From the NCBI RefSeq assembly GCF_009765965.1, contig NZ_LMUL01000014.1, forward strand, positions 520,815 through 584,814: a DNA stretch of 64,000 nt. Reading direction: 5' to 3'. The stretch comes from Caulobacter sp. S45 (lineage in GTDB: Bacteria > Pseudomonadota > Alphaproteobacteria > Caulobacterales > Caulobacteraceae). The position numbers and the translations under genes were made by a program. The notes under the pieces were generated by a model, which saw only the letters and a list, made by a program, of their open reading frames with translations, was not told the DNA's origin and ran no database searches. The first letter of the stretch is position 1. Each line of letters opens with the position of its first letter. Below, in pieces: positions 14,262 through 44,738 of the stretch.

Positions 14262-14317
14262 CCCGATGAACGGCTCCGCTGCGAGCCGGTACCCACCGAC
14301 CGGAGCCGTTCATCGGG
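14262..14317. terminator. Long inverted repeat between GT2 and capE
   Basis: Perfect 17-bp arms CCCGATGAACGGCTCCG and CGGAGCCGTTCATCGGG with a 22-base loop, immediately upstream of capE (27 bases before its ATG). No T-run follows, so Rho-independent termination is uncertain; it could instead be an attenuator or protein site. The inner core CGATGAACGG recurs in the hairpin at 41073-41106. Confidence 0.6.
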
Positions 14318-14343
14318 AACTGCGAAAGCTGTCAGCACACGCC

Positions 14344-27049: not shown

Positions 27050-27190
27050 GGCGGCCCCTCGACGATCGGCGTCCGTGTTCCGCCCATCCGTTTCTCTCAC
27101 CTCCGAGCTTCCAGCGTGAGTGCCCCGCGGTCGGGGCCGCGTTCACCGGCGTTGAACGTTTCGCGGGGACTGGGGCTACTTACCTGCACC

Positions 27191-27324: not shown

Positions 27325-29391
27325 ATGGCTCCGACGCGCGCGCTCGTCATCGGCGCCGGTGAGACCTCGGCCCTGATGCACCTGCCGGTGCTGAGCCGCC
27401 TGCGGAGACGTGGCCGGCTTGAGCTCGTCGAGATTTGCGACCTGCGCACGGACCGGGCGAGCATGGCCCAGGAGCGGTTCGGCTTCGCGAGAAACAGCGG
27501 CGACGCCCTTTCGGCGCTGCACCGCCCCGACATAACGGCGGTCTATCTGTTCGGCGACGCGCGCATGCACCATGAGCTCGGCATGGCGGCGCTCCGATGC
27601 GGCAAGCATCTGTTCGTCGAGAAGCCGATCGCGCCCAGCCACGCCGAAGCTCGTGAGATGGCGCAAGCGGCCAAACGCAAAGGCCTGATCGCCGTCGGCG
27701 GTCACAACCGGCGTTTCTACCGCTCGCTCGCAGAGGTCCGCAAACGCGGGGGTCGAGCGGGCTGGCGCTATGGCGAGGCGGTGTTCCACAAGCCGGCGTT
27801 CGGCGTCCTGCCACCGTTCGGCGCAACCAGTTGGTTGACGGCCAACGGAATCCACGCGCTGGACGCCCTGCTCTACGTCATGGACGGCCTGCCCGAAGAG
27901 ATAACGGCCATCGCCGACGGCGAGCGATACTCCGCCCTCATGCGCTGGCCGGACGGCGCGCAGGGCGTTTTCCTATGCGACAACACCGCCGGCGAGCGGC
28001 GAGAGGCCTACAGCTTCCACACCCCGGGCGAGAGCTGCCAGATTGACGACGCGGGCGTTCGCATCGTCGCCGCCGGTCAAGTCCGCGAGATCGCCGCGCC
28101 CGCCGTGGGCGATGGCTTCGAGGCCGAGCACGTGGCGTTCCTCGACGCCATAGACGATGGCGTTGAGCCCCTGCACAGTCTGGCCGCCCTCGCGCCGTCG
28201 CTTGAACTGGCCGAGCTGATCGAGGCCGGCTTTAGCGGCCGTATCGCCCGGCCGACGCCCCCCGTCCGTGTTCAGCCCCAGCCAAGACGCCCAGCCGGCG
28301 GGCCGATACTGATCGTCAACGCTGGGAGCTTGATGACCATCCTGGCGGCGACACCGGCTGGGCGGCCGCTCGTCGCCCTGGAGGATGTCCTGCGCTCGCC
28401 TCGCCCCCGCCCGGACATCGACTCGGCCCTGCTGGGGACCGGTCCGGCCGTCGTGACGGAGGATATCCTCGAGCGGCTGCCCAATCTTCGCGTCGCCGGT
28501 GTGGTGGGTCTGTCCTTTGCAAGGCATCGGCCGGACCTGCTGCTGGACCGCGGCGTGGCGCTGGTCAACGCCAGCCAGGCCTATGCCGACAGCGTCGCCG
28601 AGTTCGCCCTTGGACTCGCGATCCTGGCGCGCCGCCGTGGGTTCATCTCCGACCAGGTCATGCGGCGCGGAGGCTGGGGAACAACGCCACAGCCCGGTGG
28701 CTGGAAGGGCTTGGCGCTGTACACGGCCCAGGGACTCCGGCCCGCCGTCGCGGCCGTCGGCCTGGAGAGCGCCTTGCTGGGGGCGTGGCGCAAGACCAGG
28801 CCTTTGCACGGTCTCGGCGCGGCCGCCGCCAGCCCGATCCGGGACCTGCGAGGCGCGAAGGTGGGTCTGCTCGGTTGGAGCGCCAACGCCCGCGCTTTCG
28901 CGGCGCGCCTGCTGGCGGCGGGGGCGACCGTCGCCGTCTTTTCCGAACACGCCGCCCCCGACGACATCCGGCAGGCGGGCGCTTCGGCGGTCGCCCTCGG
29001 GGAGGCCTTGGCCGCCGACATCGTCTCGCTGCATCGCGGCCTGACGCCTGGGACTCGCCATTTTCTGGGGGCCGCAGAACTGGCGAGGCTTCGCCCGGGG
29101 ACGGTTCTGATCAATATCGCGCGCGCCGCCCTAATCGATCCGGACGCCCTGTTCGCGCGATTGAAGCGGGGCGACATCTTCGCCTGCCTCGACGTGTTCG
29201 AAGTCGAGCCGCCGGCCGCCGCCGCTCCCCTGCGTCGTCTGCCCAACGTCTTTCTGACCTCGCACATCGCCGGCGGTTCCCGGGACCTCCAGGTCACCGC
29301 CCTCAAGGAGGTGCTCGATAAGATCGATCGCCACCTCGCCGGCGACCCCGGCTTGGCCGTCTCTGGCGAGCGCCTATGGACCATGACGTGA
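27325..29391 (+). CDS. Fusion: GFO/IDH/MocA oxidoreductase + D-2-hydroxyacid dehydrogenase-like
   Basis: 688 residues with two dehydrogenase modules. Residues 1 to about 315 form a GFO/IDH/MocA protein (nucleotide loop VIGAGETSAL, FVEKPIAPSHAEA near 98, GGHNRRFYRS). Residues about 325-688 resemble D-isomer-specific 2-hydroxyacid dehydrogenases and keep the catalytic Arg (NIARAAL, about 598), Glu (VFEVEP, about 624) and His (TSHIAGG, about 646). The second Rossmann loop reads VGLLGWSANARAF instead of GxGxxG, so cofactor binding may be weak. A two-step sugar or hydroxy-acid oxidation/reduction on a nucleotide sugar is plausible. The following methyltransferase gene overlaps its end by 16 bases. 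Confidence 0.85.
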   Translation: MAPTRALVIGAGETSALMHLPVLSRLRRRGRLELVEICDLRTDRASMAQERFGFARNSGDALSALHRPDITAVYLFGDARMHHELGMAALRCGKHLFVEKPIAPSHAEAREMAQAAKRKGLIAVGGHNRRFYRSLAEVRKRGGRAGWRYGEAVFHKPAFGVLPPFGATSWLTANGIHALDALLYVMDGLPEEITAIADGERYSALMRWPDGAQGVFLCDNTAGERREAYSFHTPGESCQIDDAGVRIVAAGQVREIAAPAVGDGFEAEHVAFLDAIDDGVEPLHSLAALAPSLELAELIEAGFSGRIARPTPPVRVQPQPRRPAGGPILIVNAGSLMTILAATPAGRPLVALEDVLRSPRPRPDIDSALLGTGPAVVTEDILERLPNLRVAGVVGLSFARHRPDLLLDRGVALVNASQAYADSVAEFALGLAILARRRGFISDQVMRRGGWGTTPQPGGWKGLALYTAQGLRPAVAAVGLESALLGAWRKTRPLHGLGAAAASPIRDLRGAKVGLLGWSANARAFAARLLAAGATVAVFSEHAAPDDIRQAGASAVALGEALAADIVSLHRGLTPGTRHFLGAAELARLRPGTVLINIARAALIDPDALFARLKRGDIFACLDVFEVEPPAAAAPLRRLPNVFLTSHIAGGSRDLQVTALKEVLDKIDRHLAGDPGLAVSGERLWTMT

Positions 29392-30089
29392 TGCGCCAAG
29401 CGTTGTCTTTGGGACGGGCGTCCTGGCGGCGGGTCCGGTTCGAGCTCGCGCGGCGCCTGCGCCCCGCCGTCGAGGGCCGGTTCCAACCCTATAACCACAC
29501 GCTTCCGGATCGCTATCCGTGGCTGTTCGACTTCGCGGCGGCCGCGCTCCGGGACGCCGCCTCCCCTCGCCTGCTGTCGTTCGGATGCTCTCACGGCGAG
29601 GAGGCTTTCAGCCTTCGGCGACGCCTGCCCTCGGCGGTCATCAAGGGCGTCGACATCGATCCAGCCAACATCGCGGCCTGCCTTGCGCGATCGCACCGTT
29701 CGAACGAAGCCCGAATGGGCTTCGAGGTTGGATCGAGCGCGCGCAACGAGCCCAGCGATCACTACGACGCGGTGTTCTGCCTCGCCGTGCTCTGCCACGG
29801 GGATCTGACCGTTTCGCGCGCTCAGCGCAGCGAACCCCTCATGCGCTTCCAGGACTTCGAGCGGAGCGTCGTCGACCTGGCGCGCTGCCTGAAGCCGGGC
29901 GGCCTCCTGTTTCTGCACACCACCAATTTCCGCTTCTGCGATATCATCGCGGCCGAGGGTTTCGACGTCGTCCTCGAGGCGCGTCCCTCCCAAATGGCGC
30001 CTGACGTCCTGTTCGATCGCGAAGGCCGGCTGATGCCGGGCGAACGTTACCTTCCCGTGGGCTTCCGCAAGCGGAAGCCGCCGGCATGA
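29376..30089 (+). CDS. Class I SAM-dependent methyltransferase
   Basis: 237 residues. SAM-binding motif I reads RLLSFGCSHGEEAFSL, followed by KGVDIDPANIAA (acidic loop), YDAVFCLAVLCHG and CLKPGGLLFLHTTNF. It overlaps the fused dehydrogenase gene and the next gene (ATGA), so it belongs to one operon. It probably methylates the product of the neighbouring oxidoreductase or a sugar residue; the acceptor is unknown. Confidence 0.8.
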   Translation: MDHDVMRQALSLGRASWRRVRFELARRLRPAVEGRFQPYNHTLPDRYPWLFDFAAAALRDAASPRLLSFGCSHGEEAFSLRRRLPSAVIKGVDIDPANIAACLARSHRSNEARMGFEVGSSARNEPSDHYDAVFCLAVLCHGDLTVSRAQRSEPLMRFQDFERSVVDLARCLKPGGLLFLHTTNFRFCDIIAAEGFDVVLEARPSQMAPDVLFDREGRLMPGERYLPVGFRKRKPPA

Positions 30090-31636
30090 CCCGCCCAGCC
30101 ATGCCGGTCCAGCAGCGCCATCTCGAGCTTGTCGACGAAATCGAGCAGCGCTTCGATGTCGCCACCTGGCGTGGCGGCGATGTCGATCTGTGGCCGCTCG
30201 CGCGGATGGACCTGTTCCTGGACATGTTCAGGGCGAACGGCGGCGACACCGCCCAACCACGCCCCTCGGCCATGGAGCGCTTGGCCGGAGGTCTCGCCAC
30301 CCCGCTGAGCAATGCCTGGAAGAGCCGCCGCGATCTCGAACACTGGCGGCCCTGGCCGAGACCCGCCGACGCCATCCTGCTGGGCGACGGGGTGTCGCTG
30401 GACAAACTCTCCGGCGCCTGGCGCGACCGTCACGGCGAGGCGGTGATGGCCGCGCTGGAGCGGCAGGGCCGGACGACCTTCCTCATGCAGCCCGGCGGCC
30501 TGGATCGCCTGCCCTGGGCGCGTCCGACCTTCGCCGCCAACGGAATCGCCGTCGGCGGCGCCTTGGCGGCGGCGCTTGGTCGGAGGCTCCGGCTCGAACT
30601 GCCCGATCATACCGCTGTTCTCGATGCCTTGCGCGATCAGGGCGTCCAGGCCCCATCCCTCACCCTCGGCCGGATTCACAAGCGGGCCTGCACGACGGCG
30701 GCGGCGGCCTCGCAGTTCCAGCGGGTCCTGCGCCGCGTTCGGCCGCGCCTGGCCTTCGTCGTCACCTACTATGCAGGGCTCGGCCCGGCCTTCGCGCTCG
30801 CCTGCCGCAGGGAGGGTGTGCTGTGCGTCGATCTCCAGCATTGCCCGCACGAGGGCAGGCACAGGGCCTATCATTGGCGGCGGCTTCCAGAGCACGGCTA
30901 TTCGACCCTGCCCGCCGCTTTCTGGACCTGGACGGCCGAGGAGGCGCAGCACATCGCGCAATGGGGCGACGGCCGGGCGTCGCGCTGGCATGCAGCGCTC
31001 CATGGCGGGCATTCGCAGCTCGCCCCCTATCTGGACGACTGGGCCGTCGGCACATGCGCCTGGGATGAGCGATTTGCGGCCATGTCCGATGTCGGCTTCG
31101 AGCGCGAGATCCTGGTCGCCCTACAGCCGATCGGCGGGCGACGCGCGGTCTGGGAGACGCTGGCGCGGCAGATCCAGGCGGCGCCCGCCACCTGGCGCTG
31201 GTGGATACGCCGGCATCCGGCCTCATCGCCCTTTCAGGACGCCGAACACCATGACCTGCTGGCGATGCAGCGGCCCAATGTGGTGGTCGAGGCGGCGTCC
31301 GAGTTCCCGCTGCCGGCGCTGCTACGGCGCATGAGCGCCCTGGTCTCACTGGCGTCGGGCGCCTCGGCTGAGGCGGCCGCCTTCGGCGTCCCGGCATTGT
31401 TCCTGGATCCGGGCGCGCTCGGCGCCTTTCCAGGACTCGTCGCGCGCGGCCAGGCCGAGCTCATCGATGTCGCCGATGTGGCGTCGCGCATCGCCAGCCT
31501 GCCCGCCCGATCCGTACGCGCCGCCTGGCGCCCGCCGCCGCCGATCGGAGACACCTTGAAACGGCTGGAGGAGATGGCCGAGCCGTACCGCCGCCGCTGC
31601 CAGTCCGCGCCCCTAGAAGGACGCCGCCACGGCTGA
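30086..31636 (+). CDS. GT-B-like protein of unknown specificity
   Basis: 516 residues, no certain family. The fold pattern (DAILLGDGVSLDKL; RPRLAFVVTYYAGLGPAFALACRREGV; DLQHCPHEGRH; ILVALQPIGGRRAVWETL; WWIRRHPASS; LVSLASGASAEAAAFGVPALFLDPG) resembles the capsule/CDP-glycerol or KDO-type GT-B transferases, where the HP and the S-x-x-x-x-E-A-x-x-x-G-x-P segments bind the donor. No membrane segment. It overlaps the methyltransferase gene by four bases and is convergent with the HprK-like gene (24-base overlap). I would call it a putative glycosyl- or polyol-phosphate transferase. Confidence 0.55.
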   Translation: MTRPAMPVQQRHLELVDEIEQRFDVATWRGGDVDLWPLARMDLFLDMFRANGGDTAQPRPSAMERLAGGLATPLSNAWKSRRDLEHWRPWPRPADAILLGDGVSLDKLSGAWRDRHGEAVMAALERQGRTTFLMQPGGLDRLPWARPTFAANGIAVGGALAAALGRRLRLELPDHTAVLDALRDQGVQAPSLTLGRIHKRACTTAAAASQFQRVLRRVRPRLAFVVTYYAGLGPAFALACRREGVLCVDLQHCPHEGRHRAYHWRRLPEHGYSTLPAAFWTWTAEEAQHIAQWGDGRASRWHAALHGGHSQLAPYLDDWAVGTCAWDERFAAMSDVGFEREILVALQPIGGRRAVWETLARQIQAAPATWRWWIRRHPASSPFQDAEHHDLLAMQRPNVVVEAASEFPLPALLRRMSALVSLASGASAEAAAFGVPALFLDPGALGAFPGLVARGQAELIDVADVASRIASLPARSVRAAWRPPPPIGDTLKRLEEMAEPYRRRCQSAPLEGRRHG

Positions 31637-32500
31637 AGCGACGCCGGAACCGAACCGCGTCATCAGCATGTCGATCGCAGCGGCGGGATCGCGCGCCAGG
31701 GTCAGCCGCCAGGCGCCGGACGCCGTCAAGGCCGCGGCCGCCTCGGCGGATTCCCGCCTCAAGAGATCGAAACCGGGCTCCAGCCGCGCCAGTGCGTTCG
31801 TCGCGACCGAGGCCTCGATCGGGTCCAGCCGGATCTGATCGTCCCGTTCCAACAGCACGACGGCCGCGTGGTCCGCCACAGGCGCCTCCGACCCGGGCGT
31901 CAGCGGCACGACGGCCTTCAGCTTACCGGCGCGCAGACGCGTCTCCTGAATGAACCCGGGCGCATCGGCCGGGAACACATGCAGAGGGCGTGGGAATCCC
32001 CAGACCCGCAAGCGGGGTTGCAGCTGGATGTATACCGTGTCGTCCGAAAGGATCTTCAGACCCCGCGCCATAGCAGCAAGGCTGAGCGTGCTCTTGCCCG
32101 ATCCGCTCGGGCCAGCCAGCAGCACCGCGGTCTTGCCGCACATCACTCCCGCGGCGTGGACAGGCGTGCGCCCCGATCGGGTCAACAGGAACAGCAACAA
32201 GGTGTCGAGCGCCTCGCTGGCCAGACGGCCGGGCTGTCCCACCAGATCCCACGGAACCTTGCAGAAGGCCGTCAAGGTCCGCGCATCGGCCCCAAATTCG
32301 AAGCCTGAACCTATCGACCGCAGGCGCGCACCCTCGACCTCGATCCGGGTCGGTTCGCTGGACGCCGCATCGCCGAGCGTCAGTTCCAGCTCGATCGCGG
32401 GACCGTCCGCGGCTCGGCCCACTGGCCAGGCGGCGTACGCCTCGGCGGCCGCAGCGAGGACAGCAGGTTCGGCGCTCCGGATCACCACCGGCCTGTTCAT
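31613..32500 (-). CDS. HPr-kinase-like protein (HprK-related)
   Basis: About 295 residues. The central P-loop AGPSGSGKSTLSLA (about residue 130) preceded by HAAGV and followed by ILSDDTVYI matches the HprK C-terminal kinase core. The serine kinase N-terminal domain of true HprK is replaced by a shorter region. Such HprK-related proteins occur beside an NTP_transf_5 protein in exosortase-linked polysaccharide loci and in some lasso-peptide clusters, where they phosphorylate or otherwise process a small partner. Here the NTP_transf_5 gene is at 37148, but no PqqD or HPr gene was found. The start could also be a TTG at 32536. Confidence 0.8.
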   Translation of the reverse strand: MNRPVVIRSAEPAVLAAAAEAYAAWPVGRAADGPAIELELTLGDAASSEPTRIEVEGARLRSIGSGFEFGADARTLTAFCKVPWDLVGQPGRLASEALDTLLLFLLTRSGRTPVHAAGVMCGKTAVLLAGPSGSGKSTLSLAAMARGLKILSDDTVYIQLQPRLRVWGFPRPLHVFPADAPGFIQETRLRAGKLKAVVPLTPGSEAPVADHAAVVLLERDDQIRLDPIEASVATNALARLEPGFDLLRRESAEAAAALTASGAWRLTLARDPAAAIDMLMTRFGSGVASAVAASF

Positions 32501-32597
32501 GATCAAGAGCTGCAGGGGCGCGACGGTCAATGTCAATCCAAAAGCCCATGGTTGATTTTAGCGCATTTTTATACTCGAAACGGTTGGATAGCCGCAA
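32501..32597. promoter_or_regulatory. Divergent promoter region between HprK-like and radical SAM genes
   Basis: 97 bases, distinctly AT-rich against its surroundings (TTGATTTTAGCGCATTTTTATACT at about 32552-32575), between two divergent starts. It likely carries promoters for both. No convincing palindrome seen. Confidence 0.45.
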
Positions 32598-33995
32598 ATG
32601 ATTCTTCTGGCGCATTCGTATTTTCTGAATATAGATGCCAAGCAACTGGCAAAAATGAAGCCGTATTCCCCATTATCGACATTGATACTTGCTTCTATGC
32701 TGCGGGATAATGGCCATCAGGTCGCGATGTTCGACGCCACCTTCGCCACTGGCGTCGAGGATTTCGCCGCCGCGCTCGAGGCGCACAGGCCGACCATCGT
32801 CGTGGTGATGGAGGACAACTTCAATTTCCTCACCAAGATGTGCACCACGACCCGGCGGGAGACCGCCTTGGCGATGGTCGGCGCGGCGCGGGCGAGAGGC
32901 AGCCGGGTCGTCGTCAACGGTCCCGACGCGGCCGATCATCCGGCCCTCTATCTGGCCGCGGGCGCGGAGGCGGTGGCGCTTGGCGAAGGCGAGATGGCCG
33001 TGGCCGAACTCGTGCGCATCTGGGCGCACGCCGAAGGCTCGAGCGACGATGTCGCCGGCCTGGTCTTGCCAGGATCTGCAGGCCTGATCACCACGCGTCC
33101 TCGCGGCCCGATCCGCGATCTCGACGGCCTGCCGCCGCCGGCCTGGGACCTGCTCGACATCGAGGCCTACCGCCGCGCCTGGCGTGGCGCGCACGGCGAA
33201 TTCTCCTGGAACATGGCGAGTTCCCGAGGCTGTCCCTACACTTGCAACTGGTGTGCGAAGCCGACCTTCGGCCGCCGCTACACCGTGCGCTCACCCGCCG
33301 ATGTGGTGCGCGAGATTGCGCGCCTGAAGGTCGGGGTCGCCCCGGACCATATCTGGTTCGCCGACGACATCTTCGGTCTCGACGTCGACTGGACCACGAC
33401 GCTGGCCCAGCTCATCGAGGACGCGGGCTGCCGCATCCCCTTCACCCTCCAATCCCGGGTCAATCTCATGACCGACGCCATGGTCGACGCCCTGGCCCGG
33501 GCGGGCGCGCGCGAGGTCTGGCTCGGCGTCGAGTCCGGCTCGCAGAAGGTGCTCGATGCGATGGACAAGGGCGCGACCGTCGAGGCCGCGCGTACGGCGA
33601 CCCGCACGCTCAAGGCGCATGGCGTGCGCGCCTGCTGGTTCATCCAGCTCGGCTATCCGTCGGAAAACTGGGAGGACATCCTCTCCACCCGCGACCTCAT
33701 CCGTGCGGAGCGGCCGGACGAGATCGGCGTGTCGGTGGCCTACCCGCTCCCCGGAACAGAGTTCCATGCCCAGGTTCAAGCCCAGCTGGGCCGCCAGCGC
33801 AATTGGAAGGACACAGGCGAGCTGGCCATGCTGTTCCAGGGCGCCTATTCCACCGCGCTCTACCGCAAGGTCCGCAACGTCCTGCATGCGGAAGTGGAGG
33901 CTGGCGTCGATAACGACGGCGCCTGGAGCCGCCTCGAGGTAGACGCCCACCACCATCGTTCGCCCCGTCCGTTCCAGCTTTCGCTCGAGGCCTGA
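32598..33995 (+). CDS. B12-binding-domain radical SAM protein
   Basis: 465 residues. N-terminal cobalamin-binding-like Rossmann domain (KMKPYSPLSTLILASMLRDN, then DATFATGV, to about 145), then a radical SAM core with the 4Fe-4S motif SRGCPYTCNWC (cysteines at about 211, 215, 218), EVWLGVESGSQ and VSVAYPLPGTEF. This is the BchE/HpnP-like class that performs methylations or other radical changes on unactivated carbons. The strict DxHxxG cobalamin motif was not seen, as in many members. It heads an operon: methyltransferase genes follow after two bases and by overlap. Confidence 0.88.
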   Translation: MILLAHSYFLNIDAKQLAKMKPYSPLSTLILASMLRDNGHQVAMFDATFATGVEDFAAALEAHRPTIVVVMEDNFNFLTKMCTTTRRETALAMVGAARARGSRVVVNGPDAADHPALYLAAGAEAVALGEGEMAVAELVRIWAHAEGSSDDVAGLVLPGSAGLITTRPRGPIRDLDGLPPPAWDLLDIEAYRRAWRGAHGEFSWNMASSRGCPYTCNWCAKPTFGRRYTVRSPADVVREIARLKVGVAPDHIWFADDIFGLDVDWTTTLAQLIEDAGCRIPFTLQSRVNLMTDAMVDALARAGAREVWLGVESGSQKVLDAMDKGATVEAARTATRTLKAHGVRACWFIQLGYPSENWEDILSTRDLIRAERPDEIGVSVAYPLPGTEFHAQVQAQLGRQRNWKDTGELAMLFQGAYSTALYRKVRNVLHAEVEAGVDNDGAWSRLEVDAHHHRSPRPFQLSLEA

Positions 33996-33997
33996 GC

Positions 33998-34816
33998 GTG
34001 ACGTCCCCACAGGTCTCGTCCGCGGCCGCCGCAGCCTTCGACGCCGTCGCCGAGCGGTTCGACGCGCGCTTTTCCCCCTGGCTCAGCGTCGCCGCCCAGA
34101 GGCGCGCCGTACGAACGGCGCTGGCGCAGGCGTTCCCGCCTGGCGCGAGCCTGATCGAGATCGGCGGGGGCACGGGCGAAGACGCGCTATGGCTGGTCGA
34201 GCGCGGGCGACAGGTGCTGTTGACCGACGCCTCCCCGCGGATGGTCCAGATGGCGTCCGCCAAGTTCCGGGCTAGCGCCGGCGCTAGCGCGGAAACCTGC
34301 GCAGCGGAGGACCTGGCCCAGCTGGCGGGCCGGATCGAGGCGCGGTTCGACGGGGCTTACTCCAACTTCGCAGCTCTGAACTGTGTCAGCGACCTGGCGC
34401 CGTTCGCGGCGGGCCTCGCCAAGCTGTTGCGCCCAGGCGCGCCGGCCCTGCTGGTGATCTTCGGTTGCGTCTGCCCTGGCGAGTGGCTGGTCGAGACCCT
34501 GCATCGGCGGCCCAAGAACGTCCTCCGACGCCTCGCCGCCGGCGACCAGCCCGCGCGCCTGGGCGGCCGCGAGTTCACCGTCCGCTATCATCGCCGCCAA
34601 GACCTCGAACGCGCCATGGCCCCCTGGTTCCGGCCGGCAGGCCGACGAGGCGTGGGCGTCTTCGTCCCGCCGAGCGCCGCGGAGCCGTGGGTTTCGCGCC
34701 ATCCGCAGCTTCTGCGGACGCTGGAAACCCTGGACCGCAGCTTGGCCGCGCCCCTTTCGGGGCTTGGCGACCACATCCTCTACCGCTTCGAGCGAACCGG
34801 CGCAGAGGCTCAATGA
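33998..34816 (+). CDS. Class I SAM-dependent methyltransferase
   Basis: 272 residues starting with GTG two bases after the radical SAM stop. UbiE/BioC-like features: AFDAVAERFDARF, motif I LIEIGGGTGEDALWL, LLTDASPRMV, FDGAYSNFAALNCV and LRPGAPALLVIFG. The next methyltransferase overlaps it by ATGA. The acceptor is unknown; its position suggests it acts on the same substrate as the radical SAM enzyme. Confidence 0.82.
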   Translation: MTSPQVSSAAAAAFDAVAERFDARFSPWLSVAAQRRAVRTALAQAFPPGASLIEIGGGTGEDALWLVERGRQVLLTDASPRMVQMASAKFRASAGASAETCAAEDLAQLAGRIEARFDGAYSNFAALNCVSDLAPFAAGLAKLLRPGAPALLVIFGCVCPGEWLVETLHRRPKNVLRRLAAGDQPARLGGREFTVRYHRRQDLERAMAPWFRPAGRRGVGVFVPPSAAEPWVSRHPQLLRTLETLDRSLAAPLSGLGDHILYRFERTGAEAQ

Positions 34817-35616
34817 GCGCGTCCTCACTGCAAAGGTTCGCCAAGGACTACGCCGTCCAGCGTGAAGCGGAGGGGCGCGGCTATGCGGGCGATGAGCTGT
34901 TCGCCCTGCCCTACATCCAATCCGGCCCGCTCGCGCGACAATGGGCGGTGCGCGCCCGCAGCTTCGACGCCTTCCGCCGTCGGGTGATCCGCCCGATGGC
35001 CACGACCCTCGGCCGGCCGCTGGAACTACTCGACCTCGGGGCCGGCAATGGCTGGCTGAGCTATCGGGTGGCGCGGGAGGGGCACCGCGCCCTCGCGCTC
35101 GATATCCGCGACGATCGCATCGACGGCCTCGGCGCCAGCGAGCCTTTCCTGCAAAGGGCGGACGGACGGATGCAGATCGCCGTCGCCGGCTTCGACCAGA
35201 TCCCGGCTCAGAACCACAGTTTCGACATCGCAGTCTTCAACGCCTCGCTGCACTACGCCACCGACCTCGCCGCCGTCCTGGCGGAGGCGGCGCGCGTGGT
35301 GCGGCCGGGCGGCCGACTCGTGATCCTGGATTCCCCCTTCTATCGCCGCGAAGCGGACGGCCTGGCCATGGTGGCGGAAAAGATCGCCGACGCGTCCCGG
35401 CGTTTCGGCTCGCGGGCCGAAACGCTGATGTCCTTGCCCTTCATCGAATTCCTAACCCGCGCGCGGCTGGCCGCGACGGCGACGGCCGCCGGCGTGGCGT
35501 GGCGCAGGTCGCGGGTCCTCTACCCGCTCTGGTACGAGCTTCGCCCGCTGACGGCGAAGCTGCGCGGCGCGCGTGCGCCGTCCCGTTTTGACCTTTGGAT
35601 CGGTGCGCGGCCTTGA
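34813..35616 (+). CDS. Class I SAM-dependent methyltransferase
   Basis: 267 residues. Motif I is LELLDLGAGNGWLSYRVA, the acidic loop is ALDIRDDRIDGL, then FDIAVFNASLHYATDL and VVRPGGRLVILDSPFY. The N-terminal part (QRFAKDYAVQREAEGRGYA) resembles SAM enzymes that act on carrier-bound or lipid substrates. It overlaps both neighbours by four bases. Two adjacent, non-similar methyltransferases plus radical SAM enzymes imply multiple modifications of one product. Confidence 0.82.
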   Translation: MSASSLQRFAKDYAVQREAEGRGYAGDELFALPYIQSGPLARQWAVRARSFDAFRRRVIRPMATTLGRPLELLDLGAGNGWLSYRVAREGHRALALDIRDDRIDGLGASEPFLQRADGRMQIAVAGFDQIPAQNHSFDIAVFNASLHYATDLAAVLAEAARVVRPGGRLVILDSPFYRREADGLAMVAEKIADASRRFGSRAETLMSLPFIEFLTRARLAATATAAGVAWRRSRVLYPLWYELRPLTAKLRGARAPSRFDLWIGARP

Positions 35617-37196
35617 TCATCCTTGTGAACCCACGCGCCACGCGCCCGTCGAACCGGCGCTTTCCCTTGTCGGTGATGGCGATCGGCGCCGCCCTGCCGG
35701 ACGACGTCAGCTGGGAGATCGTCGACGGCAACCTGCCCAATATCGACGTGCTGGCCACGATCATCGGCCATGTCGAGCGGCAGGCGGCCGGGAACGATCC
35801 CGTCCGCGCCGTCGCCATGACCGTCATGCCCGGCCCGCAACTGGTCAGCGCCGTACCGCTGGCCAAGGGTGTGAAGCTAAGGTTTCCGGACCTGCCGATC
35901 ATCTGGGGCGGCAACTTCGGCAGCCTCTATACGGACGCGGTGCTGAATGCGCCCTATGTCGACTGGGTCGTGCGGGGGCAAGGCGAGCACACGTTCTTGG
36001 AACTGCTCGAAGCGATCGACGGCCGACGCGATCCGAAGACCATCGCGGGCCTCGCCTTCCGCCAACCGGACGGCTCGAACTGGATCGGAAAGGAGCGCAT
36101 CTGGAAGAGTCCGGACGAGCTACCGGCGCCGCCCTACCACAAGATCGATGTGGACCAGTACCTGCAGCCCACCGTGCTTGGTCGGCGGTCGGGCGTCTAC
36201 CAAGCCTCGATCGGCTGCCCCTACGGCTGCAATTTCTGCGGAGTGATCAGCGTCTTCGGCCGGCGTGAAAAGGTGCAGGGGCCCGAGCGCACCGCCGAAC
36301 ATCTCGCCTTCCTGGTCCGCAACCACGGCATGGACTCGGTCCACTTCTACGACAACAATTTCTTCCTGAACGAGCCCCACGCGCGCGAGGTGGCCGCACG
36401 CATGAAGCCGCTGGGCCTACGCTGGTGGTGCGAGGCGCGGGTCGACGCCCTGAACCGCTTCTCCGACGCGACGTGGCGCGCGTTGCGCGAAGCGGGCCTG
36501 ACCATGGTGTTCTGCGGCGCCGAGTCCGGTTCGAACGAAGTGCTGGCGAAAATGAACAAGGGGATCACCACCGACCAGATCGTAGCCGCGGCCGCCAAGA
36601 CTCGCGAACACGGCATCATCCCGGAGTTCTCGTTCGTCTTCGGCGATCCTGATGAGCCGGAACTGCAACTTGAGAACACCCTCGCCTTCATCCGCCAACT
36701 AAAAGCGGTGAACCCGGCGATGGAGCTGATCAGCTATTTCTACACGCCCACCCCGCAGCGGCAGAGCACCTACGGCGACGTCGACGCCAACGAGGGCACG
36801 CCCGACTCCCTTGAAGAGTGGATCAAGCCCGAGTGGGTGGCTTGGATGACCCACGAAAATCCCCGCCTGCCCTGGTTCGAACAGAAGCTCAAGGCACGGG
36901 CCGAGGACTTCGAACTGATCCTCAAGAGCCGCTTTCCCTCGGTGCACGACCGCCAGACCCGCGGCTGGGGCAAGCTGTTGGGCCAAGCGGCCGCCTGGCG
37001 GCGCTGGGAACAGGGGAACTACGACGACCCGCGGCTTCTGCGCCGCATCCGCAAGCTAGCCCGCATCGTCCCCGACGACACCCAGGCCTACGGTCACCTA
37101 CGCCCGTCGGCGTCAGCGAAAGCACAACGGGCGCCGGGTGAGCGGTCTCATTGGCTGACCCTGCCCCTGATGAGGCGCCAGGCCCGCTCTTCGTAG
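35613..37196 (+). CDS. B12-binding-domain radical SAM protein
   Basis: About 527 residues. The N-terminal Rossmann domain (IILVNPRATRPSNRRFPLSVMAIGAAL) is followed by a radical SAM core with GCPYGCNFCG (cysteines about 201, 205, 208), WCEARVDAL and VFCGAESGSNEVLAKMNKG. The start is taken as TTG 35613, in the TTGA overlap with the upstream gene; TTG 35595 is the alternative. The last 49 bases overlap the 3' end of the oppositely oriented nucleotidyltransferase gene. It differs clearly from the paralogue at 32598, so the two probably modify different positions. Confidence 0.87.
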   Translation: MIILVNPRATRPSNRRFPLSVMAIGAALPDDVSWEIVDGNLPNIDVLATIIGHVERQAAGNDPVRAVAMTVMPGPQLVSAVPLAKGVKLRFPDLPIIWGGNFGSLYTDAVLNAPYVDWVVRGQGEHTFLELLEAIDGRRDPKTIAGLAFRQPDGSNWIGKERIWKSPDELPAPPYHKIDVDQYLQPTVLGRRSGVYQASIGCPYGCNFCGVISVFGRREKVQGPERTAEHLAFLVRNHGMDSVHFYDNNFFLNEPHAREVAARMKPLGLRWWCEARVDALNRFSDATWRALREAGLTMVFCGAESGSNEVLAKMNKGITTDQIVAAAAKTREHGIIPEFSFVFGDPDEPELQLENTLAFIRQLKAVNPAMELISYFYTPTPQRQSTYGDVDANEGTPDSLEEWIKPEWVAWMTHENPRLPWFEQKLKARAEDFELILKSRFPSVHDRQTRGWGKLLGQAAAWRRWEQGNYDDPRLLRRIRKLARIVPDDTQAYGHLRPSASAKAQRAPGERSHWLTLPLMRRQARSS

Positions 37197-38392
37197 ATTC
37201 TGCGGAATTCCGGCCAGGACCGGTCGGCGGGGAAGAGGTCGCGGGCCAGCAGGCGCAGGCGTCCTCGCCAGCCGACCGCCCACATGAAGTGCTCCGCCAT
37301 CGAGTTGCGGTCGATCCGCTGAGCCGTCGCCGGGGTCAGCTGCTTCAAGGCGCTTCGCACCGCCCAAGGCGCGCGGGCCGCGCAGAGCTCGAGGATTTCC
37401 TTCGGCACCGTGGCGGGCGCCAGGCTTTCCGCCACGCGCAGCGCGGGATAGGCGTAGCCGATCGCCCCCGTCTTGGCGCCGATATCGACGAACGCATCCC
37501 AGGACAATTTCCCGGCCGCGAGATCCTGGCGGATCACCAGCACGAGCTCGACCTGCCGCAGCAGGGTCAGGTTCTGCCACCCGGCCCCGGCATGGGTGGC
37601 CAAATGCAGGAGCAGCAGCGGTTGATCCAAGACGCTGGCCCGGGGATCGGCCAGCCATCGGCCGCCGCTCGCCATGGGATGGATCAGGTCGAGCCCGGCC
37701 AACGGCGTGCCCCAGCCTGCGGAGATGTTCAGCGAGCTGTGCAGATCTATCGACCAGGGATCTTCGGCATGGACATAGGTGAGCGAGCGGGGTGTCTGTT
37801 CGCTGGCGGATGGCGACCAGCAGCTCTCCCATTGGCTGCGCCCCATGAAGCTGAGGCCGTAGCCTTCCATCGCAGCTTCGGCCTTGGACACGTCTTCGGC
37901 GGCGACGAGGAGGTCGATATCGGACGCCGGGCGCGCGCCCGGTTCCGGAAAGTAGCTCCAGCCCGTGTGTGCGCCCTTTAGGACGAGCGCCTGGACGCCT
38001 TGGTCGGATAGTCGCCCGACGATCTCGACGGCCGTCTGCGTCATGCTGCTGGCGCGCAAGCGATTGTGAGCCAGATGTCGCGCCAGCGTGACCGCGATGG
38101 CGGGACTGGTCTGCAGCCTGCCCTGTTCGAGCCAGAGGCCGAGAAGCGGCCCCACACCTGAGGTGTAGGCTGCAAGCCCGATGGCCTGCGGGTCGCCCTC
38201 CAGCCGCACGCGCGGCGCGTCGGCGAGCAGGATGCGGATCACGCGTTGGATTCCCGTCAGGGCCGAGCGCCAGGCTTCGATCGACACATCCGGCCATAAC
38301 CAGGTTGGGCGGCCCTGGCGCCGGGCCCAGAGGACGCGTCGGCGCATCTCTTCAGGAGAGATTTCTGGATCGGCGTCCCGTGTCTCTGCCAT
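37148..38392 (-). CDS. NTP_transf_5 family nucleotidyltransferase
   Basis: 414 residues. VLKGAHTGW followed by ARPASDIDLLVAAEDV (about 140-168) is the signature of the uncharacterised nucleotidyltransferase family, with the paired aspartates DID. An alpha-helical region makes up the rest. Members appear next to HprK-related kinases and in RiPP or polysaccharide clusters, so the HprK-like gene at 31613 is a probable functional partner although separated by four genes. Target (protein, peptide or sugar) unknown. Confidence 0.82.
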   Translation of the reverse strand: MAETRDADPEISPEEMRRRVLWARRQGRPTWLWPDVSIEAWRSALTGIQRVIRILLADAPRVRLEGDPQAIGLAAYTSGVGPLLGLWLEQGRLQTSPAIAVTLARHLAHNRLRASSMTQTAVEIVGRLSDQGVQALVLKGAHTGWSYFPEPGARPASDIDLLVAAEDVSKAEAAMEGYGLSFMGRSQWESCWSPSASEQTPRSLTYVHAEDPWSIDLHSSLNISAGWGTPLAGLDLIHPMASGGRWLADPRASVLDQPLLLLHLATHAGAGWQNLTLLRQVELVLVIRQDLAAGKLSWDAFVDIGAKTGAIGYAYPALRVAESLAPATVPKEILELCAARAPWAVRSALKQLTPATAQRIDRNSMAEHFMWAVGWRGRLRLLARDLFPADRSWPEFRRIYEERAWRLIRGRVSQ

Positions 38393-38493
38393 CCACCGAC
38401 CCTTCGTCGCCCAACCTCAACACTTCCTTTGTTCCCCTTCGCCGGTGAATCGTTCGAACCGAAGGTGTACGGCGGCGGCCGATTGAACTTTTC

Positions 38494-39888
38494 ATGCAGT
38501 CGCGGCGACCTACCTCGCACGTCCAGCCATCCAAACCCCATGAGTGCATGGCCTCTGTCTCGAGCTCGCCCGACCGCTGGAGAGGAAGGCCTTCGGCGCC
38601 CAGCCCCAGCCGTGTCCCGCCGGAGGCGCCGCGCTCGGCCGACTTGCCAGCGCGCACCCAGCGGGTCCTTCTCGGCCTGTGCGTCGCCCTGGCGGTCAGC
38701 ACGCCGCTGTGCCTGTATCTCGGCGTGCGGGGCTTCGCGCCGGTCGCTGGCATAGTCGGCCTGCTCTGCCTGCCGTTGGCCCGCCCCACACGCGAAGACG
38801 TCAGCGGCATACTCATCCTGGCGGCGCTGGTGATCTGGGCGGCGATCAGCATCGCTTGGTCGCCGGCCTCCAATCTCCGCGTGTTCAACAGCGCCAAGGC
38901 GTTCAGCCACTTCACCATCGGGCACATGGCGCTCCTGCTCGTCTTGTGCCCCGCCCTGATCACAGGATTGAGGCGGCTGGACGAGCGTTCGGCCCGCAAG
39001 GCCTTGAGCTGGATCGCCTACGGCGTCCTGGCTGCGACGCCTGTGGTGGTCGGGGAAGGGCTCACCGGGATCAAGCTCTATCCCCTCCTACTCGCCCTCA
39101 CCCATCAGCAGGTCCGGCTCGACCGGCTCATCGCCGACCTGGCCCAGGGCGGCTACGTCGTCGCCGTGGTGGCTTGGCCGCTCGGTGTGGCGCTTATGCG
39201 CCAGGGCCGGCCACGCCTCGCCCTGGTGCTGATGGCCTTTGCCCCGCTCTCCATGCTGGTCCTGCGGGGCGTCGCGCCCACCTTGGCGCTGGGGGTCGGG
39301 CTCGGGAGTTTCCTGCTCGTGCTTCGGCTGGGACCGCGAGGGGCCGGCGTCCTCGCCCTTCTGACGGCGGCCTATCTGCTGGCTGTTCCCGGGGTCATGC
39401 TGGCCGTAGACCATCTGCAGCTCTACGCCCAGTTCAAGACGGCGCTGCCGCCGTCGTGGTCGGATCGCCTGCGCATCTGGAGCTTTGTCGCCGAGCAGCT
39501 CGCCGGGACCTTCCCGCGCGGGGCGGGTCTGGACGCCAGTCGCACCTTCCCCGGGCTCATCCCCCTGCACCCGCACAGCGCGCCTCTGCAGGTGTGGTAC
39601 GAACTCGGGCTGCCCGGCGCGATGCTCGAGATCTGCTTCTGGCTATGGCTGTGGCGGCGTATCAGCGATTGCGCGCGGCGAGACCGGCTCTATGGGGCCA
39701 CGGCCGCGGCCACCGCGATGGCCTATCTGAGCATCAACGCCGTCAGCTTCGGCCAGTGGCAGGCGTGGTGGCTGGCGGTAGGCGGCTTGGCCACGGCCCT
39801 CTGCGTGCTGCTTGGCAAGACCCTCGTCCCGACGGAGGGTGCGGAAGGATCGCCCTTGCGGACACGCTCCGGCGGGTCACGGCGATGA
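38494..39888 (+). CDS. O-antigen ligase / Wzy_C family membrane protein
   Basis: Up to 464 residues with about ten membrane helices. The large periplasmic loop has RLRIWSFVAEQLAG, GAGLDASRT and HPHSAPLQVWYELGLPG, the conserved Arg and His region of WaaL/Wzy_C proteins. It attaches or polymerises undecaprenyl-linked glycan. The start is uncertain: ATG 38494 gives a long non-hydrophobic leader, ATG 38548 a shorter one; neither has a good ribosome-binding site. It is the second polymerase/ligase-like gene in the locus, after 23197. It overlaps the SPASM gene by ATGA. Confidence 0.83.
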   Translation: MQSRRPTSHVQPSKPHECMASVSSSPDRWRGRPSAPSPSRVPPEAPRSADLPARTQRVLLGLCVALAVSTPLCLYLGVRGFAPVAGIVGLLCLPLARPTREDVSGILILAALVIWAAISIAWSPASNLRVFNSAKAFSHFTIGHMALLLVLCPALITGLRRLDERSARKALSWIAYGVLAATPVVVGEGLTGIKLYPLLLALTHQQVRLDRLIADLAQGGYVVAVVAWPLGVALMRQGRPRLALVLMAFAPLSMLVLRGVAPTLALGVGLGSFLLVLRLGPRGAGVLALLTAAYLLAVPGVMLAVDHLQLYAQFKTALPPSWSDRLRIWSFVAEQLAGTFPRGAGLDASRTFPGLIPLHPHSAPLQVWYELGLPGAMLEICFWLWLWRRISDCARRDRLYGATAAATAMAYLSINAVSFGQWQAWWLAVGGLATALCVLLGKTLVPTEGAEGSPLRTRSGGSRR

Positions 39889-40997
39889 AGCGTCCGGCGC
39901 ACCCCCGTCTGCGCGCGCTCAACGAACGGCTATTTCCAGACCGGCTTCTGTTTGGGCCTACGCACATCGTTCTAGGGGTCAACAACTTCTGCAATCTGCA
40001 CTGCGTCATGTGCGACGTCGGCACAGGAAATAGCGAAACGAATTTCGGCGCCAACCTAGTCGGGGCCAAGACGCGATCGATGCCGATCGAGCTGTTCCGC
40101 CATGTCGTGGACGAGATGGCCGCCTTCTGCCCAACCGCGCACCTGGGCTTCGCCTTTACCGAGCCCCTGGCCTGGCGGCCGATCGGCGAGGCGCTCGCCA
40201 TGGCGCGGGAACGCGGCCTGCAGTCGTCGGTGACGACCAACGGCCTGCTCTTGACCCGCCATCTCGAAGACCTCGCCCACGGTCAGTGCCGCAATCTCGC
40301 CGTATCGCTCGATGGCCCCGAGGCCGTGCATGACCAGATCCGCCGGCATTCGGGCTCTTATGCCCGGGCCGTCGCCGGCATCGAGGCGCTGGCGATGAAA
40401 CCCGGCGCGCCGGATATCTCGGTCTATTGCACGATCACGGAGCTGAACGTCGGGTCGTTACGGCCATTCCTGCGGGAGATGAGCCGCCTGCCTCTGAAGC
40501 GGGTCGGTCTCTTGCACAACAATTTCGTCACGGCGGACCAGGCCGAACGACACAATGCGCAGTATGCACACGCGCTGCACGCCACCGCGTCCAATGTATT
40601 CCTGACCGATCCTGGCAAGATCGAACTGGAGCTGCTGGCGGAGGAGCTGCAGGAGATCGAGCGGGAGGTCTATCCCTTCCCGGTCCTCATCCAGCCCGGC
40701 CTGACGAGCGTGGCAGCGCTGGAAACCTATTACCGGCGACCTGAAGTTCCTGTCGGCCGCACCTGCCATGACGCCTCACGGATCTTGATGATCGATCCCG
40801 ACGGCGAGGCGATCCCGGTTCATGGCCGCTGCTTCCGCTTTCCGATCGGCAACATCCGCCAGCAGAGCCTGGCCTCGATCTGGAACCACGAACACCTTGG
40901 CGAGCTCCGGCGCACCTTGCGCCAGGCGGGCGGGCTGCTGCCCGCGTGTAGCCGATGCTGCAGCGGATTTGGCGGCGTCCCGCGCCAGGCGCTCTAG
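39885..40997 (+). CDS. Radical SAM/SPASM domain protein
   Basis: 370 residues. The 4Fe-4S motif NNFCNLHCVMCDVG (cysteines at about 35, 39, 42) lies in a radical SAM core, with NLAVSLDGPEAVHDQIR. The C-terminal SPASM-like region has several cysteines (RTCHDASR, PVHGRCFRF, CSRCCSGFGGVPR). SPASM enzymes mature peptides or modify carrier-bound sugars and cofactors. No obvious precursor peptide gene is adjacent. It is coupled to the ligase-like gene upstream, which argues for a role in surface-glycan modification. Confidence 0.88.
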   Translation: MKRPAHPRLRALNERLFPDRLLFGPTHIVLGVNNFCNLHCVMCDVGTGNSETNFGANLVGAKTRSMPIELFRHVVDEMAAFCPTAHLGFAFTEPLAWRPIGEALAMARERGLQSSVTTNGLLLTRHLEDLAHGQCRNLAVSLDGPEAVHDQIRRHSGSYARAVAGIEALAMKPGAPDISVYCTITELNVGSLRPFLREMSRLPLKRVGLLHNNFVTADQAERHNAQYAHALHATASNVFLTDPGKIELELLAEELQEIEREVYPFPVLIQPGLTSVAALETYYRRPEVPVGRTCHDASRILMIDPDGEAIPVHGRCFRFPIGNIRQQSLASIWNHEHLGELRRTLRQAGGLLPACSRCCSGFGGVPRQAL

Positions 40998-41122: not shown

Positions 41123-42637
41123 TCAGATCCTGTAGCGGAGCGAGAACTGGAACACGGTTTGGCTCTCAAAGGGCGAGGCCAGGTCGCCGAGGGTCACTCG
41201 GTTGTCGCGATCGCTTTCGACGTTCATGGCCTCGGCCAGGAAGGTCAGGTTGCGCGTCAGGTTTATGCGCGCGGCGGCCGTCAGCGCCCAGCCATTCTCG
41301 CCGCTGCCCGGCGGCATCTCGCTACCGTGCTCCTGGGTGGCGAACGTCTCGGCGCGGCCGGTGACGGACCACGGTCCGAGCTTCTGCGTAATCAGCACAT
41401 AGGCTGACTGGTAGTTGGTGTGGACCCAGGGTTCCCCGTCCGTGTCGGCGCCCATGATGGTCGAGCCGGCCATTCCTTGCGCCAGAAGCTTGGTGGTGGG
41501 CGTGAGATCGGCGTTCAGGCCGACGTTCCAGAACCGGGTGCGCCAGCCCCATTGCAAGTCGGACTGGAAAACCTGCGGATTGCCACGGTTGTCGTAGTAG
41601 AACACCGACAGGCCGAACGGCCAGGGAGGGGCCCAGGCGGCTCGGGCGTACCAGCCTGGATTATGGTCGACATTGTCCGTCGACTCCGTCGCGTTCTGCT
41701 GGGCCCGGTCCAAGAAAGGGGATCGGTTCGGTAGGGGGAAGTCGGACGTGGCGGTGGCCTTGAGGGTGTCGAGCGCCCATCCTCGGAACGACAGCAGGGT
41801 TCCTGCCGTATCGTTGAATTCGAACACGGCCGCGGTGGTGGTGAAGTTTTGGTCGCCGAGGGCGAAGCGCAGGGTCGGCTCGATACCGACCACCTTCACT
41901 TCCTCGCCGACCCAGGTGTTGATGGCGGACGGCGTGATGGTGTTCACTACGCTCCAGGCGCCGCCCGTCGTGTGTTCGAGCGAGATTTCCGGCCACATCA
42001 GACCCGCGCGGAGCTGGAAACCGACCGGACCGGTCTGGGGCGGCAGGTAGTTGAGGAATGCCTCCATCAGGTCCATGCGGTTTTCGTGGTGGTTCTGCCA
42101 GGCCCACGAGATGTTGGCGCTCAGCGAGTCGGTGAAGCGCGGTTCGTAAACCACATCCGCCTCGTTGAGCGAGAGCTGAGCCCCATAACCGCCCTTGGAA
42201 TTGCCCTGGAACTCGGTCTTGCCTTCGCCGCGGCTGAGCCATGACGGCTGCCCATTGGCGACGACCAGCCGCTCGTCGAACAGCGCCCAGAGGCTGTTCG
42301 TCGACAGCAGATCCATATGCTCGTTCACGAAGGGGTTGTTGATGTTCGTGAACGGCAGCTTCGCCGTCGGCGTGGACGCCTGCTGATCCGAGGGCGGGCT
42401 CTGATGGGCCTCCGTCGGCTGGGCTGGGGCCGGACCCGGTTGCGGGGCCGGCGGCTGATCCGCGGCCGGGGCTGGCTGCGGCGCGGCGGCCTGATCGGCG
42501 GCTGCGCCTTGCGCCGGCACCGGGGTTTCCTGCGCCTGCGCAGTCGAGCCTGCGCAGAGCCAGCCCATGGCAAGGGTCAGGGCGAGACCGCTCGCCGCGC
42601 CGCTCAGGGCGGTGGAAGGGTTCAATCTTGAGCTCAT
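41123..42637 (-). CDS. Putative outer-membrane beta-barrel porin
   Basis: 504 residues: signal peptide (ALTLAMGWLCAGSTAQA-Q), a Pro/Ala/Gln-rich low-complexity linker (about 40-85), then a predicted beta-barrel with alternating hydrophobic residues and many aromatic-ended strands, finishing with FSLRYRI as expected for outer-membrane insertion. The ATG at 42637 overlaps the stop of the upstream amidohydrolase gene, so it is the last gene of a three-gene operon. Not similar to a named porin that I recognise; it may pass the substrate of the amidohydrolase. Confidence 0.75.
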   Translation of the reverse strand: MSSRLNPSTALSGAASGLALTLAMGWLCAGSTAQAQETPVPAQGAAADQAAAPQPAPAADQPPAPQPGPAPAQPTEAHQSPPSDQQASTPTAKLPFTNINNPFVNEHMDLLSTNSLWALFDERLVVANGQPSWLSRGEGKTEFQGNSKGGYGAQLSLNEADVVYEPRFTDSLSANISWAWQNHHENRMDLMEAFLNYLPPQTGPVGFQLRAGLMWPEISLEHTTGGAWSVVNTITPSAINTWVGEEVKVVGIEPTLRFALGDQNFTTTAAVFEFNDTAGTLLSFRGWALDTLKATATSDFPLPNRSPFLDRAQQNATESTDNVDHNPGWYARAAWAPPWPFGLSVFYYDNRGNPQVFQSDLQWGWRTRFWNVGLNADLTPTTKLLAQGMAGSTIMGADTDGEPWVHTNYQSAYVLITQKLGPWSVTGRAETFATQEHGSEMPPGSGENGWALTAAARINLTRNLTFLAEAMNVESDRDNRVTLGDLASPFESQTVFQFSLRYRI

Positions 42638-44374: not shown

Positions 44375-44738
44375 GAGACCGCCCGCACGACGGGCGCGCT
44401 CCTAAGTTTGGGCGCGCTCGCAAGCAAGCGCGGAGATGATTTGAAGATCATGGCGTCACCCCGCTGTCGATCCCTGAGTGCCGGGATCGCTGCGGACGGT
44501 TCAACGCGCCCGGCCTTGCTCGCTCACCAAGCGAGCCGCACGCGGCTGGGATCGAGTCTCGGTTCGATCGGAAGGAAGGTATCCGCCTGGGCGCCCTCGT
44601 TCCGGCCTGCGGTCAGGGTGGCGCGCTTAAGTCGTAGGCCGCCCGCCACCGTCGGCGACCGCAGACTTAAACCGTTGCGCCCCCACGCGGCACTCACGGG
44701 GGTCCAAACGGACAGCCGGGTTGGTAAAGGAACATAGG
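44375..44738. other. Intergenic region with direct repeat and small hairpin
   Basis: 364 bases between divergent genes. It contains two copies of GGGCGCGCTC (44392-44401 and 44410-44419) spaced 18 bases start to start, just upstream of the methyltransferase operon, and a 7-bp hairpin CGATCCC/GGGATCG (44468-44489). AAAGGA ahead of 44739 is the ribosome-binding site of the copper protein gene. No gene or terminator T-run was found. Confidence 0.5.

Follow-up and report, generated by a model that had tools for sequence, protein, structure and literature searches.

The 64,000-nucleotide stretch of Caulobacter sp. S45 DNA analysed here (NCBI RefSeq assembly GCF_009765965.1, contig NZ_LMUL01000014.1, positions 520,815 to 584,814; hereafter the window) carries a group of enzyme genes that an earlier note had delimited to 27325-40997 and taken for one system. 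The genes of this island are open frames at their given positions in the open reading frame (ORF) listing, with starts chosen among the possible start codons. Third-position G+C bias was seen in them, while MT3 and the SPASM gene were dropped by the overlap filter. The core consists of an HprK-like kinase (31613..32536, minus strand), two B12-binding radical S-adenosylmethionine (SAM) enzymes, rSAM1 (32598..33995, plus) and rSAM2 (35595..37196, plus), three class I SAM methyltransferases, MT2 (33998..34816, plus), MT3 (34813..35616, plus) and MT4 (43697..44374, minus), and an amidohydrolase of the deaminase type (42634..43695, minus). Both domains of each radical SAM enzyme exceed the Pfam cut-off; the methyltransferases and the amidohydrolase were likewise assigned by Pfam, and MT4 by the profile scan as well. 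A nucleotidyltransferase of the NTP_transf_5 family (37148..38392, minus) scores 88.9 bits against a Pfam cut-off of 31.2.

Relatives were collected by a scan seeded with rSAM2, which covered 84,980 species with one genome each and yielded 40 loci. Counts over 37 loci omit three clostridial loci at about 30% identity (L046-L048), and frequencies of single genes refer to the 22 full-flank loci with about 10 kb on each side, 15 of the 37 being left out for short flanks. The 37 rSAM2 loci, at 50-80% identity, belong to Alphaproteobacteria, Gemmatimonadetes, Acidobacteria and one Planctomycetota metagenome-assembled genome; those of Alphaproteobacteria come from Caulobacter, Gluconacetobacter, Sphingomonas, Altererythrobacter and metagenome-assembled genomes.

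Gene profiles run on these loci gave the common set named above. Because each profile was built from the same loci that were then scanned, the scores behind the following counts lean upward, their thresholds were set after the profile results had been inspected, and several cassette genes broken into pieces in L044 were counted as present. The HprK-like kinase occurs in 22/22 full-flank loci once the diverged subfamily of L033, L034 and L037 is included. rSAM1 and MT2 were each found in 21 of the 22, MT3 in 18, and MT4 and the amidohydrolase in 17 each. The four loci in which MT3 is absent (L017, L036, L037 and L040) contain a second rSAM1-type protein. Frequent partners of the core are NTP_transf_5 (strict count 13/22, with weak matches in L031, L032 and L034), glycosyltransferases (GTc6 in 15 and GTc8 in 13 of 22) and an ATP-binding cassette (ABC) transporter (8/22, with a homologue also in both Caulobacter loci). 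A cupredoxin, an extracytoplasmic function (ECF) sigma factor and a BBP2 protein were each counted in 7 of the 22. In many loci the kinase gene diverges from a run of rSAM1, MT2, MT3, rSAM2, MT4 and amidohydrolase genes. This one-strand order is complete in 12 of the 37 loci, 7 further loci retain rSAM1>MT2>MT3>rSAM2 alone, and the remaining 18 are partial, rearranged or variant.

Within the genus Caulobacter, the amidohydrolase (E limit 1e-10), rSAM2 (1e-50), the HprK-like kinase (1e-10) and the ECF factor (1e-30) each matched the same 2 of 75 genomes and none other, the four matches lying within about 28 kb per genome (G090:C6:91697-119316 and G543:C5:235875-264522). Among 149 genomes of the same family, rSAM1 matches were obtained in four including its own, the other three being G090 (69%), G109 (32%) and G128 (29%). 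Among 72,556 plasmid records, none matched rSAM2 at E 1e-60. Divergence among the core proteins correlates from locus to locus (r 0.55-0.88 for 15 gene pairs, computed without species-tree control; at most 3 of 500 Mantel permutations reach it), which would fit co-inheritance. The core genes are one system, kept together across four phyla. Co-occurrence in other genomes had been named beforehand as the observation on which the single-system idea would stand or fall; the genes were found together in 37 loci and in 2 of 75 Caulobacter genomes, and the idea survives. The note's further supposition, a C-methylated glycan as the substrate, is no more than a possibility. What stood of the proposed island is the co-occurring core of HprK, rSAM1, MT2, MT3 and rSAM2, while its limits had been misplaced on either side: MT4 and the amidohydrolase (42634-44374) are part of the system, and two genes inside the proposed range, an O-antigen-ligase-like gene and a SPASM gene, are not core.

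The kinase stays below the Pfam cut-off (Hpr_kinase_C, 23.1 against 33.3), yet its predicted fold matches both PEPCK and HprK, as its earlier naming had implied. The AlphaFold model, with a predicted local distance difference test score (pLDDT) of 88.7, aligned with the PEPCK structure 2pc9_D along the whole chain including the N-terminal part (Z 14.0, root-mean-square deviation (rmsd) 5.9, 261 aligned), and with the HprK structure 1ko7_A over the C-terminal part (Z 13.0, rmsd 3.1, 137 aligned). The P-loop GKS is present in 23/23 sequences, and the acidic pair reads DD in 18, ED in 4 and DE in 1. By modelled fold, P-loop and acidic pair, the protein is a predicted HprK/PEPCK-fold kinase; the model for HPr(Ser) kinase proper, TIGR00679, was not reached (22.4 against a cut-off of 240 bits).

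The motif CxxxCxxC was found in 31 of 32 rSAM1 sequences, the sole miss being a fragment. For rSAM2 it is present in 36 of 38, and the two exceptions are sequences shortened to 294 and 289 amino acids. Domains and motif together identify rSAM1 and rSAM2 as putative cobalamin-type radical SAM enzymes. They share the B12-binding and radical SAM domains and CxxxCxxC with the class B groups of BchE, HpnJ, MJ_0865 and TIGR04295, but their scores lie far under every listed curated cut-off, and none of the 25 and 20 NCBIfam families listed (BchE, HpnJ, TIGR04295, AprD4 and others) was over its cut-off. In NTP_transf_5, a third Asp accompanies the DxD motif in 19/19 sequences; compared with PDB sequences through a two-sequence profile, the protein gave nothing at E 1.

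For the amidohydrolase, the metal and catalytic set HxH, HxxE, H and D is invariant in 23 aligned proteins. The structures nearest to its model (pLDDT 92.7) are annotated as adenosine or methylthioadenosine (MTA)/S-adenosylhomocysteine (SAH) deaminases (4gbd, 4f0r and 4dzh; Z 32-33, rmsd about 3, 311-312 aligned). These enzymes have the same metal and catalytic residues, but the identity is 24-28% and the window protein is 80-90 residues shorter. The atrazine chlorohydrolase AtzA follows close behind (Z 30.6), and the best NCBIfam model, the TRZ/ATZ family hydrolase, gave 49.9 against 540 bits, all cut-offs being far off.

Ahead of the kinase gene in window coordinates lies a variable head module. 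It comprises a fusion of a Gfo/Idh and a D-2-hydroxyacid dehydrogenase (27325..29391, plus), both NAD-binding halves of which exceed the Pfam cut-off, the class I methyltransferase MT1 (29376..30089, plus; Pfam) and a protein encoded at 30086..31636 (plus). Between the two halves of the fusion, about 250 or more residues are without assignment; the fusion protein is retained in three Gluconacetobacter loci and L031. The 30086 protein had been labelled GT-B-like, an assignment left unsupported: Pfam, NCBIfam and PDB profiles gave zero matches, the best PDB profile being an unrelated protein at E 0.2. In many loci, two GT4 glycosyltransferase genes (GTc6 and GTc8) stand near the kinase gene. In the window, in the three Gluconacetobacter loci (L009-L011) and in L031, this pair is replaced by the dehydrogenase fusion and the 30086-type protein, homologues of which are confined, within the set of loci, to L009-L011 and L031. 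The two head sets were found together in 0/37 loci, and neither set in L028, L034 and L037. MT1 is present in L009-L011 and not in L031, with more distant matches in L053 and L054. GTc8 had zero matches in the strain's own genome at E 1e-10, in a search that carried no positive control.

After the nucleotidyltransferase gene in window coordinates come the O-antigen-ligase-like gene (38494..39888, plus) and the SPASM radical SAM gene (39885..40997, plus; Pfam), the latter starting at about 39885, where the former frame ends. The open frame of the first is there as reported, although its ligase-like character stays below the Pfam cut-off (26.4 against 31.7); the SPASM enzyme, the dehydrogenase fusion, the three methyltransferases of the island, the two B12 radical SAM enzymes and the NTP_transf_5 protein, all named before, are present and confirmed by Pfam. 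A close SPASM homologue was found in 1 of the 37 loci (L032, 64%), and the profile scan matched the O-antigen-ligase-like protein in 0/40 loci. On this comparison of loci, both genes are classed as neighbours of the core.

Several accessory genes accompany the cassette. An outer-membrane-barrel-like protein (41123..42637, minus; Pfam BBP2 19 against 26.2, below cut-off) adjoins the amidohydrolase in both Caulobacter loci and in Sphingomonas loci. A cupredoxin-like protein (44721..45095, plus), an anti-sigma-like zinc-finger protein of the zf-HC2 family with a fervidolysin-prodomain-like end (45310..45984, minus) and an ECF sigma factor (45988..46635, minus), all assigned by Pfam, are found again next to the cassette in loci of Caulobacter, Sphingomonas and Gluconacetobacter, the cupredoxin match being absent in the last. 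In the relatives the ECF/zinc-finger set is accompanied by a subtilase, which follows the zinc-finger gene or is joined to it, and by a TorF-type porin; the window copy is without both, and no subtilase adjoins its zinc-finger gene. L020:15962-17737 is a zinc-finger/subtilase relative of window 45310-45984. A zinc-finger protein with a subtilase would suggest a possible protease-controlled ECF switch. A second ECF/zinc-finger/subtilase/TorF-porin set lies on another contig of the strain's own genome (L061, G000:C15:150500-170000, at 8000-12100), thus the accessory part is not exclusive to the cassette. With that set is, judged by eye, a cupredoxin-like protein, and a multicopper oxidase is nearby. 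Directly after the island, window 46888-55617 contains a major facilitator superfamily transporter and histidine-utilisation-like genes (HutF-like, amidohydrolase, aromatic lyase and urocanase).

A distant version of the cassette was found in three other Alphaproteobacteria among 385 genomes, with rSAM2 at 38-39% identity and genes resembling rSAM1 and MT2; L053 and L054, two of the three loci, also have an amidohydrolase-like gene. By eye from translations, L053 and L054 adjoin SLBB-type export genes. An MtrB/PioB outer-membrane barrel (L053 13838-16363; Pfam) and, by eye, a similar MtrB/PioB-like barrel (L054 15006-17540) lie near the distant cassette, as do CxxCH-containing cytochrome-like proteins in both loci. 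Selenocysteine at an in-frame TGA was considered for two relatives at 38% and rejected. The TGA of G466 is a stop at the protein end, and ORF L055 9020-10546 of G309 ends within the last 15 bases of the match, an ordinary end, so the idea was dropped.

In the window, the cassette sits in a Wzx/Wzc-type polysaccharide locus with a flippase, a chain-length protein and glycosyltransferases, its polymerase not being identified with certainty. The locus comprises a Wzc-like protein (19654-21963), a GT4 (21966-23177), a 469-amino-acid protein without assigned role (23197-24606), a Wzx-like protein (24603-25871) and a second GT4 (25868-27100, minus), assigned by Pfam except for the 469-residue protein. 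Beside them are an ABC transporter protein (17691..19472, minus; Pfam ABC_tran) and UDP-sugar genes (14266..17634, plus; Pfam), here named FnlA/FnlB/FnlC-like after the known pathway. The cassette likewise lies in a Wzx/Wzc-type locus in the Caulobacter genomes G090 and G543. Compared with these two by tblastn, the polysaccharide genes at 19654-27100 show 50-66% identity; the fnl-type genes are 64-79% identical in both, with fnlA/fnlB matches also in L009-L011, and over the locus genes outside the cassette the range is 50-79%. Wzx/Wzc exopolysaccharide loci of Caulobacteraceae have the same Wzc-like, Wzx-like, GT4 and UDP-sugar genes, but the cassette is found in only 2 of 75 Caulobacter genomes and also occurs in loci whose flanks lack such genes. 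Elsewhere, SLBB- or Wza/Wzc-type export genes were recognised by eye from translations beside the cassette in L012, L021, L023 and the distant L053 and L054, and the positions of Poly_export matches fall within L012, L021 and L023.

The pairing of kinase and nucleotidyltransferase has a precedent for tagging a carrier, as the earlier note had supposed, in the phosphoglycosylated lasso peptides of the pseudomycoidin type. According to a review (PMC8498205), a serine is phosphorylated there by an HprK homologue, and the phosphopeptide then receives one or two hexoses through the action of a nucleotidyltransferase. The lasso module and the cassette are alike in this pairing of an HprK-like kinase with a nucleotidyltransferase. 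Unlike the module, however, the cassette has two B12 radical SAM enzymes, methyltransferases and an amidohydrolase, and no recognition element, leader protease, cyclase or precursor was detected in it. The two families also occur together in exosortase-associated HprK-rel/NTP_transf_5 loci, to which the window is linked by weak HprK_rel_A/B matches, but the HprK_rel_A score is 37 against 200. Exosortase gave zero matches among the 41 distinct window proteins submitted to Pfam, a subset of the window ORFs. Our searches of open-licence PMC papers produced no description of these known enzyme classes in this combination.

We infer all of the cassette's chemistry from enzyme classes and precedent. 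Because the kinase and the nucleotidyltransferase stand with glycosyltransferases and a transporter, our best guess is an export product that bears both phosphate and sugar, and the cassette is tentatively read, with a little less than even confidence, as a biosynthetic one for a multiply methylated, phosphorylated, glycosylated and exported product. The radical SAM enzymes and the other methyltransferases would methylate carbon and O or N of one small core, and the amidohydrolase would strip an amino or imino group from that core or from adenosine by-products (SAH and 5'-deoxyadenosine). The HprK-like kinase would then phosphorylate a hydroxyl, and NTP_transf_5 may attach a sugar via that phosphate as in the reported lasso peptide. 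The sugar head would be built by the two GT4 enzymes or, here, by the set of dehydrogenase fusion, MT1 and 30086 protein, and the finished product exported. Since the cassette lies inside a Wzx/Wzc-type locus in the window and two Caulobacter genomes, decoration of the glycan of that locus is the likeliest fate of the product here, and in these three genomes the glycan may be the carrier. The patchy spread of the cassette suggests that it has probably moved laterally. A bolder and doubtful version of the proposal, possible at best, would be a class of non-ribosomal small molecules in which B12 radical SAM enzymes, in pairs or threes, set several C-methyl groups, a small-molecule kinase of the HprK/PEPCK fold adds a phosphate, and a sugar is attached through that phosphate; the class would have spread laterally among several phyla and, in some bacteria, be fixed onto exopolysaccharide.

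Several observations weigh against this reading. Not every B12 radical SAM enzyme is a methylase, and the lasso precedent presumes that its nucleotidyltransferase is a PF14907 (NTP_transf_5) protein. In 9 of the 22 full-flank loci NTP_transf_5 is either missing or diverged, rSAM1 is absent in L012, and the amidohydrolase is missed in L009, L010, L013, L023 and L035; in L013 and L035, which belong to G090 and G543, it is found in the same locus about 25 kb away. In the window and the Caulobacter genomes, MT4 and the amidohydrolase gene lie some kilobases outside the rSAM operon. Correlated divergence is expected from shared species history as well. The Poly_export match closest to the cassette of Sphingomonas sp. 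7/4-4 lies about 380 kb away, provided that C1 is its chromosome, so the polysaccharide locus is not a constant partner, and the flanks of L030, L031, L032 and L039 resemble, by eye, genes other than those for polysaccharide.

A less likely alternative is that the kinase and NTP_transf_5 make a sugar phosphate and then a nucleoside diphosphate sugar, and that a branched sugar with several methyl groups, the work of the radical SAM enzymes and methyltransferases, enters a polysaccharide repeat unit directly. This route is favoured by the UDP-sugar genes that adjoin the cassette in the window, in the two Caulobacter loci and in three Gluconacetobacter loci, by the GT4 pair beside the kinase in many loci and by a below-cut-off NTP_transf_3 match (21.9 against 27) in the locus of the distant relative L053. 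However, fnl-type matches occur in 5 of the 40 loci and in none of the Sphingomonas or Gemmatimonadetes loci, and the gaps in NTP_transf_5 just given tell against this route too. NTP_transf_5 is not known as a sugar-1-phosphate nucleotidyltransferase family.

Improbable, in our estimate, is the proposal that the cassette modifies a ribosomal peptide encoded elsewhere, the kinase and NTP_transf_5 acting as in lasso peptides and the B12 enzymes C-methylating residues. The strain's own genome does hold a second NTP_transf_5 gene, in a lasso-type cluster (L060, G000:C6:88000-107000, at 8440-16020) with an HprK-like kinase, Asn_synthase, Transglut_core3, PqqD and an ABC transporter; therefore the HprK and NTP_transf_5 pair occurs twice in this genome, in two different settings. 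The L060 kinase matches the cassette kinases weakly (27 phmmer hits including itself). The window, though, was said to be without a lasso cyclase or PqqD, and this was confirmed there and in the 40 loci, the protease being added to the list and the same-genome cluster serving as positive control. The Asn-synthetase-like cyclase was found in 0 of these 41 sources at E 1e-3, where L060 matches, and a PqqD-like recognition element and a Transglut_core3 protease in 0/41, with one query per family and frames of at least 60 amino acids, by which very diverged or short forms may be missed. An all-against-all comparison of 2,953 small ORFs from the 40 loci and the window gave no convincing precursor family across distant loci, short variable or unlinked precursors being beyond its reach; the families obtained were antisense to coding genes (SPASM-type, fnlA, glycosyltransferase and fnlC) or confined to close relatives. 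Alignment of the kinase model with the PEPCK fold along its whole chain is a further point against a peptide substrate route.

Less probable again is a cluster that tailors a tetrapyrrole, a quinone or a hopanoid-like lipid. When rSAM1 and rSAM2 are scored against NCBIfam, BchE, MJ_0865 and HpnJ rank near the top, but the best of them reaches 116 against a curated cut-off of 481, and no tetrapyrrole or hopanoid biosynthesis families were found among the scanned cassette proteins. Chance assembly of unrelated glycan and tailoring genes is scarcely credible: the gene sets around the core do vary, and two of them, the SPASM and O-antigen-ligase-like genes, are hardly seen outside the window, but the same core is jointly present or absent across the loci and the Caulobacter genomes.

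What had been an odd island is now a delimited cassette that is portable and has about eight core genes; it is present in named strains of Caulobacter, Gluconacetobacter, Sphingomonas and Altererythrobacter, and its product can therefore be sought by plain deletion and mass spectrometry. Such work would help to assign roles to two poorly understood families, NTP_transf_5 and the HprK-related kinases, and to two unassigned groups of B12 radical SAM enzymes, and it would test whether phosphoglycosylation by a kinase and a nucleotidyltransferase reaches past peptides. If the proposed small-molecule chemistry is true, the HprK and NTP_transf_5 pair would be a general phosphoglycosylation module that is not confined to peptides.

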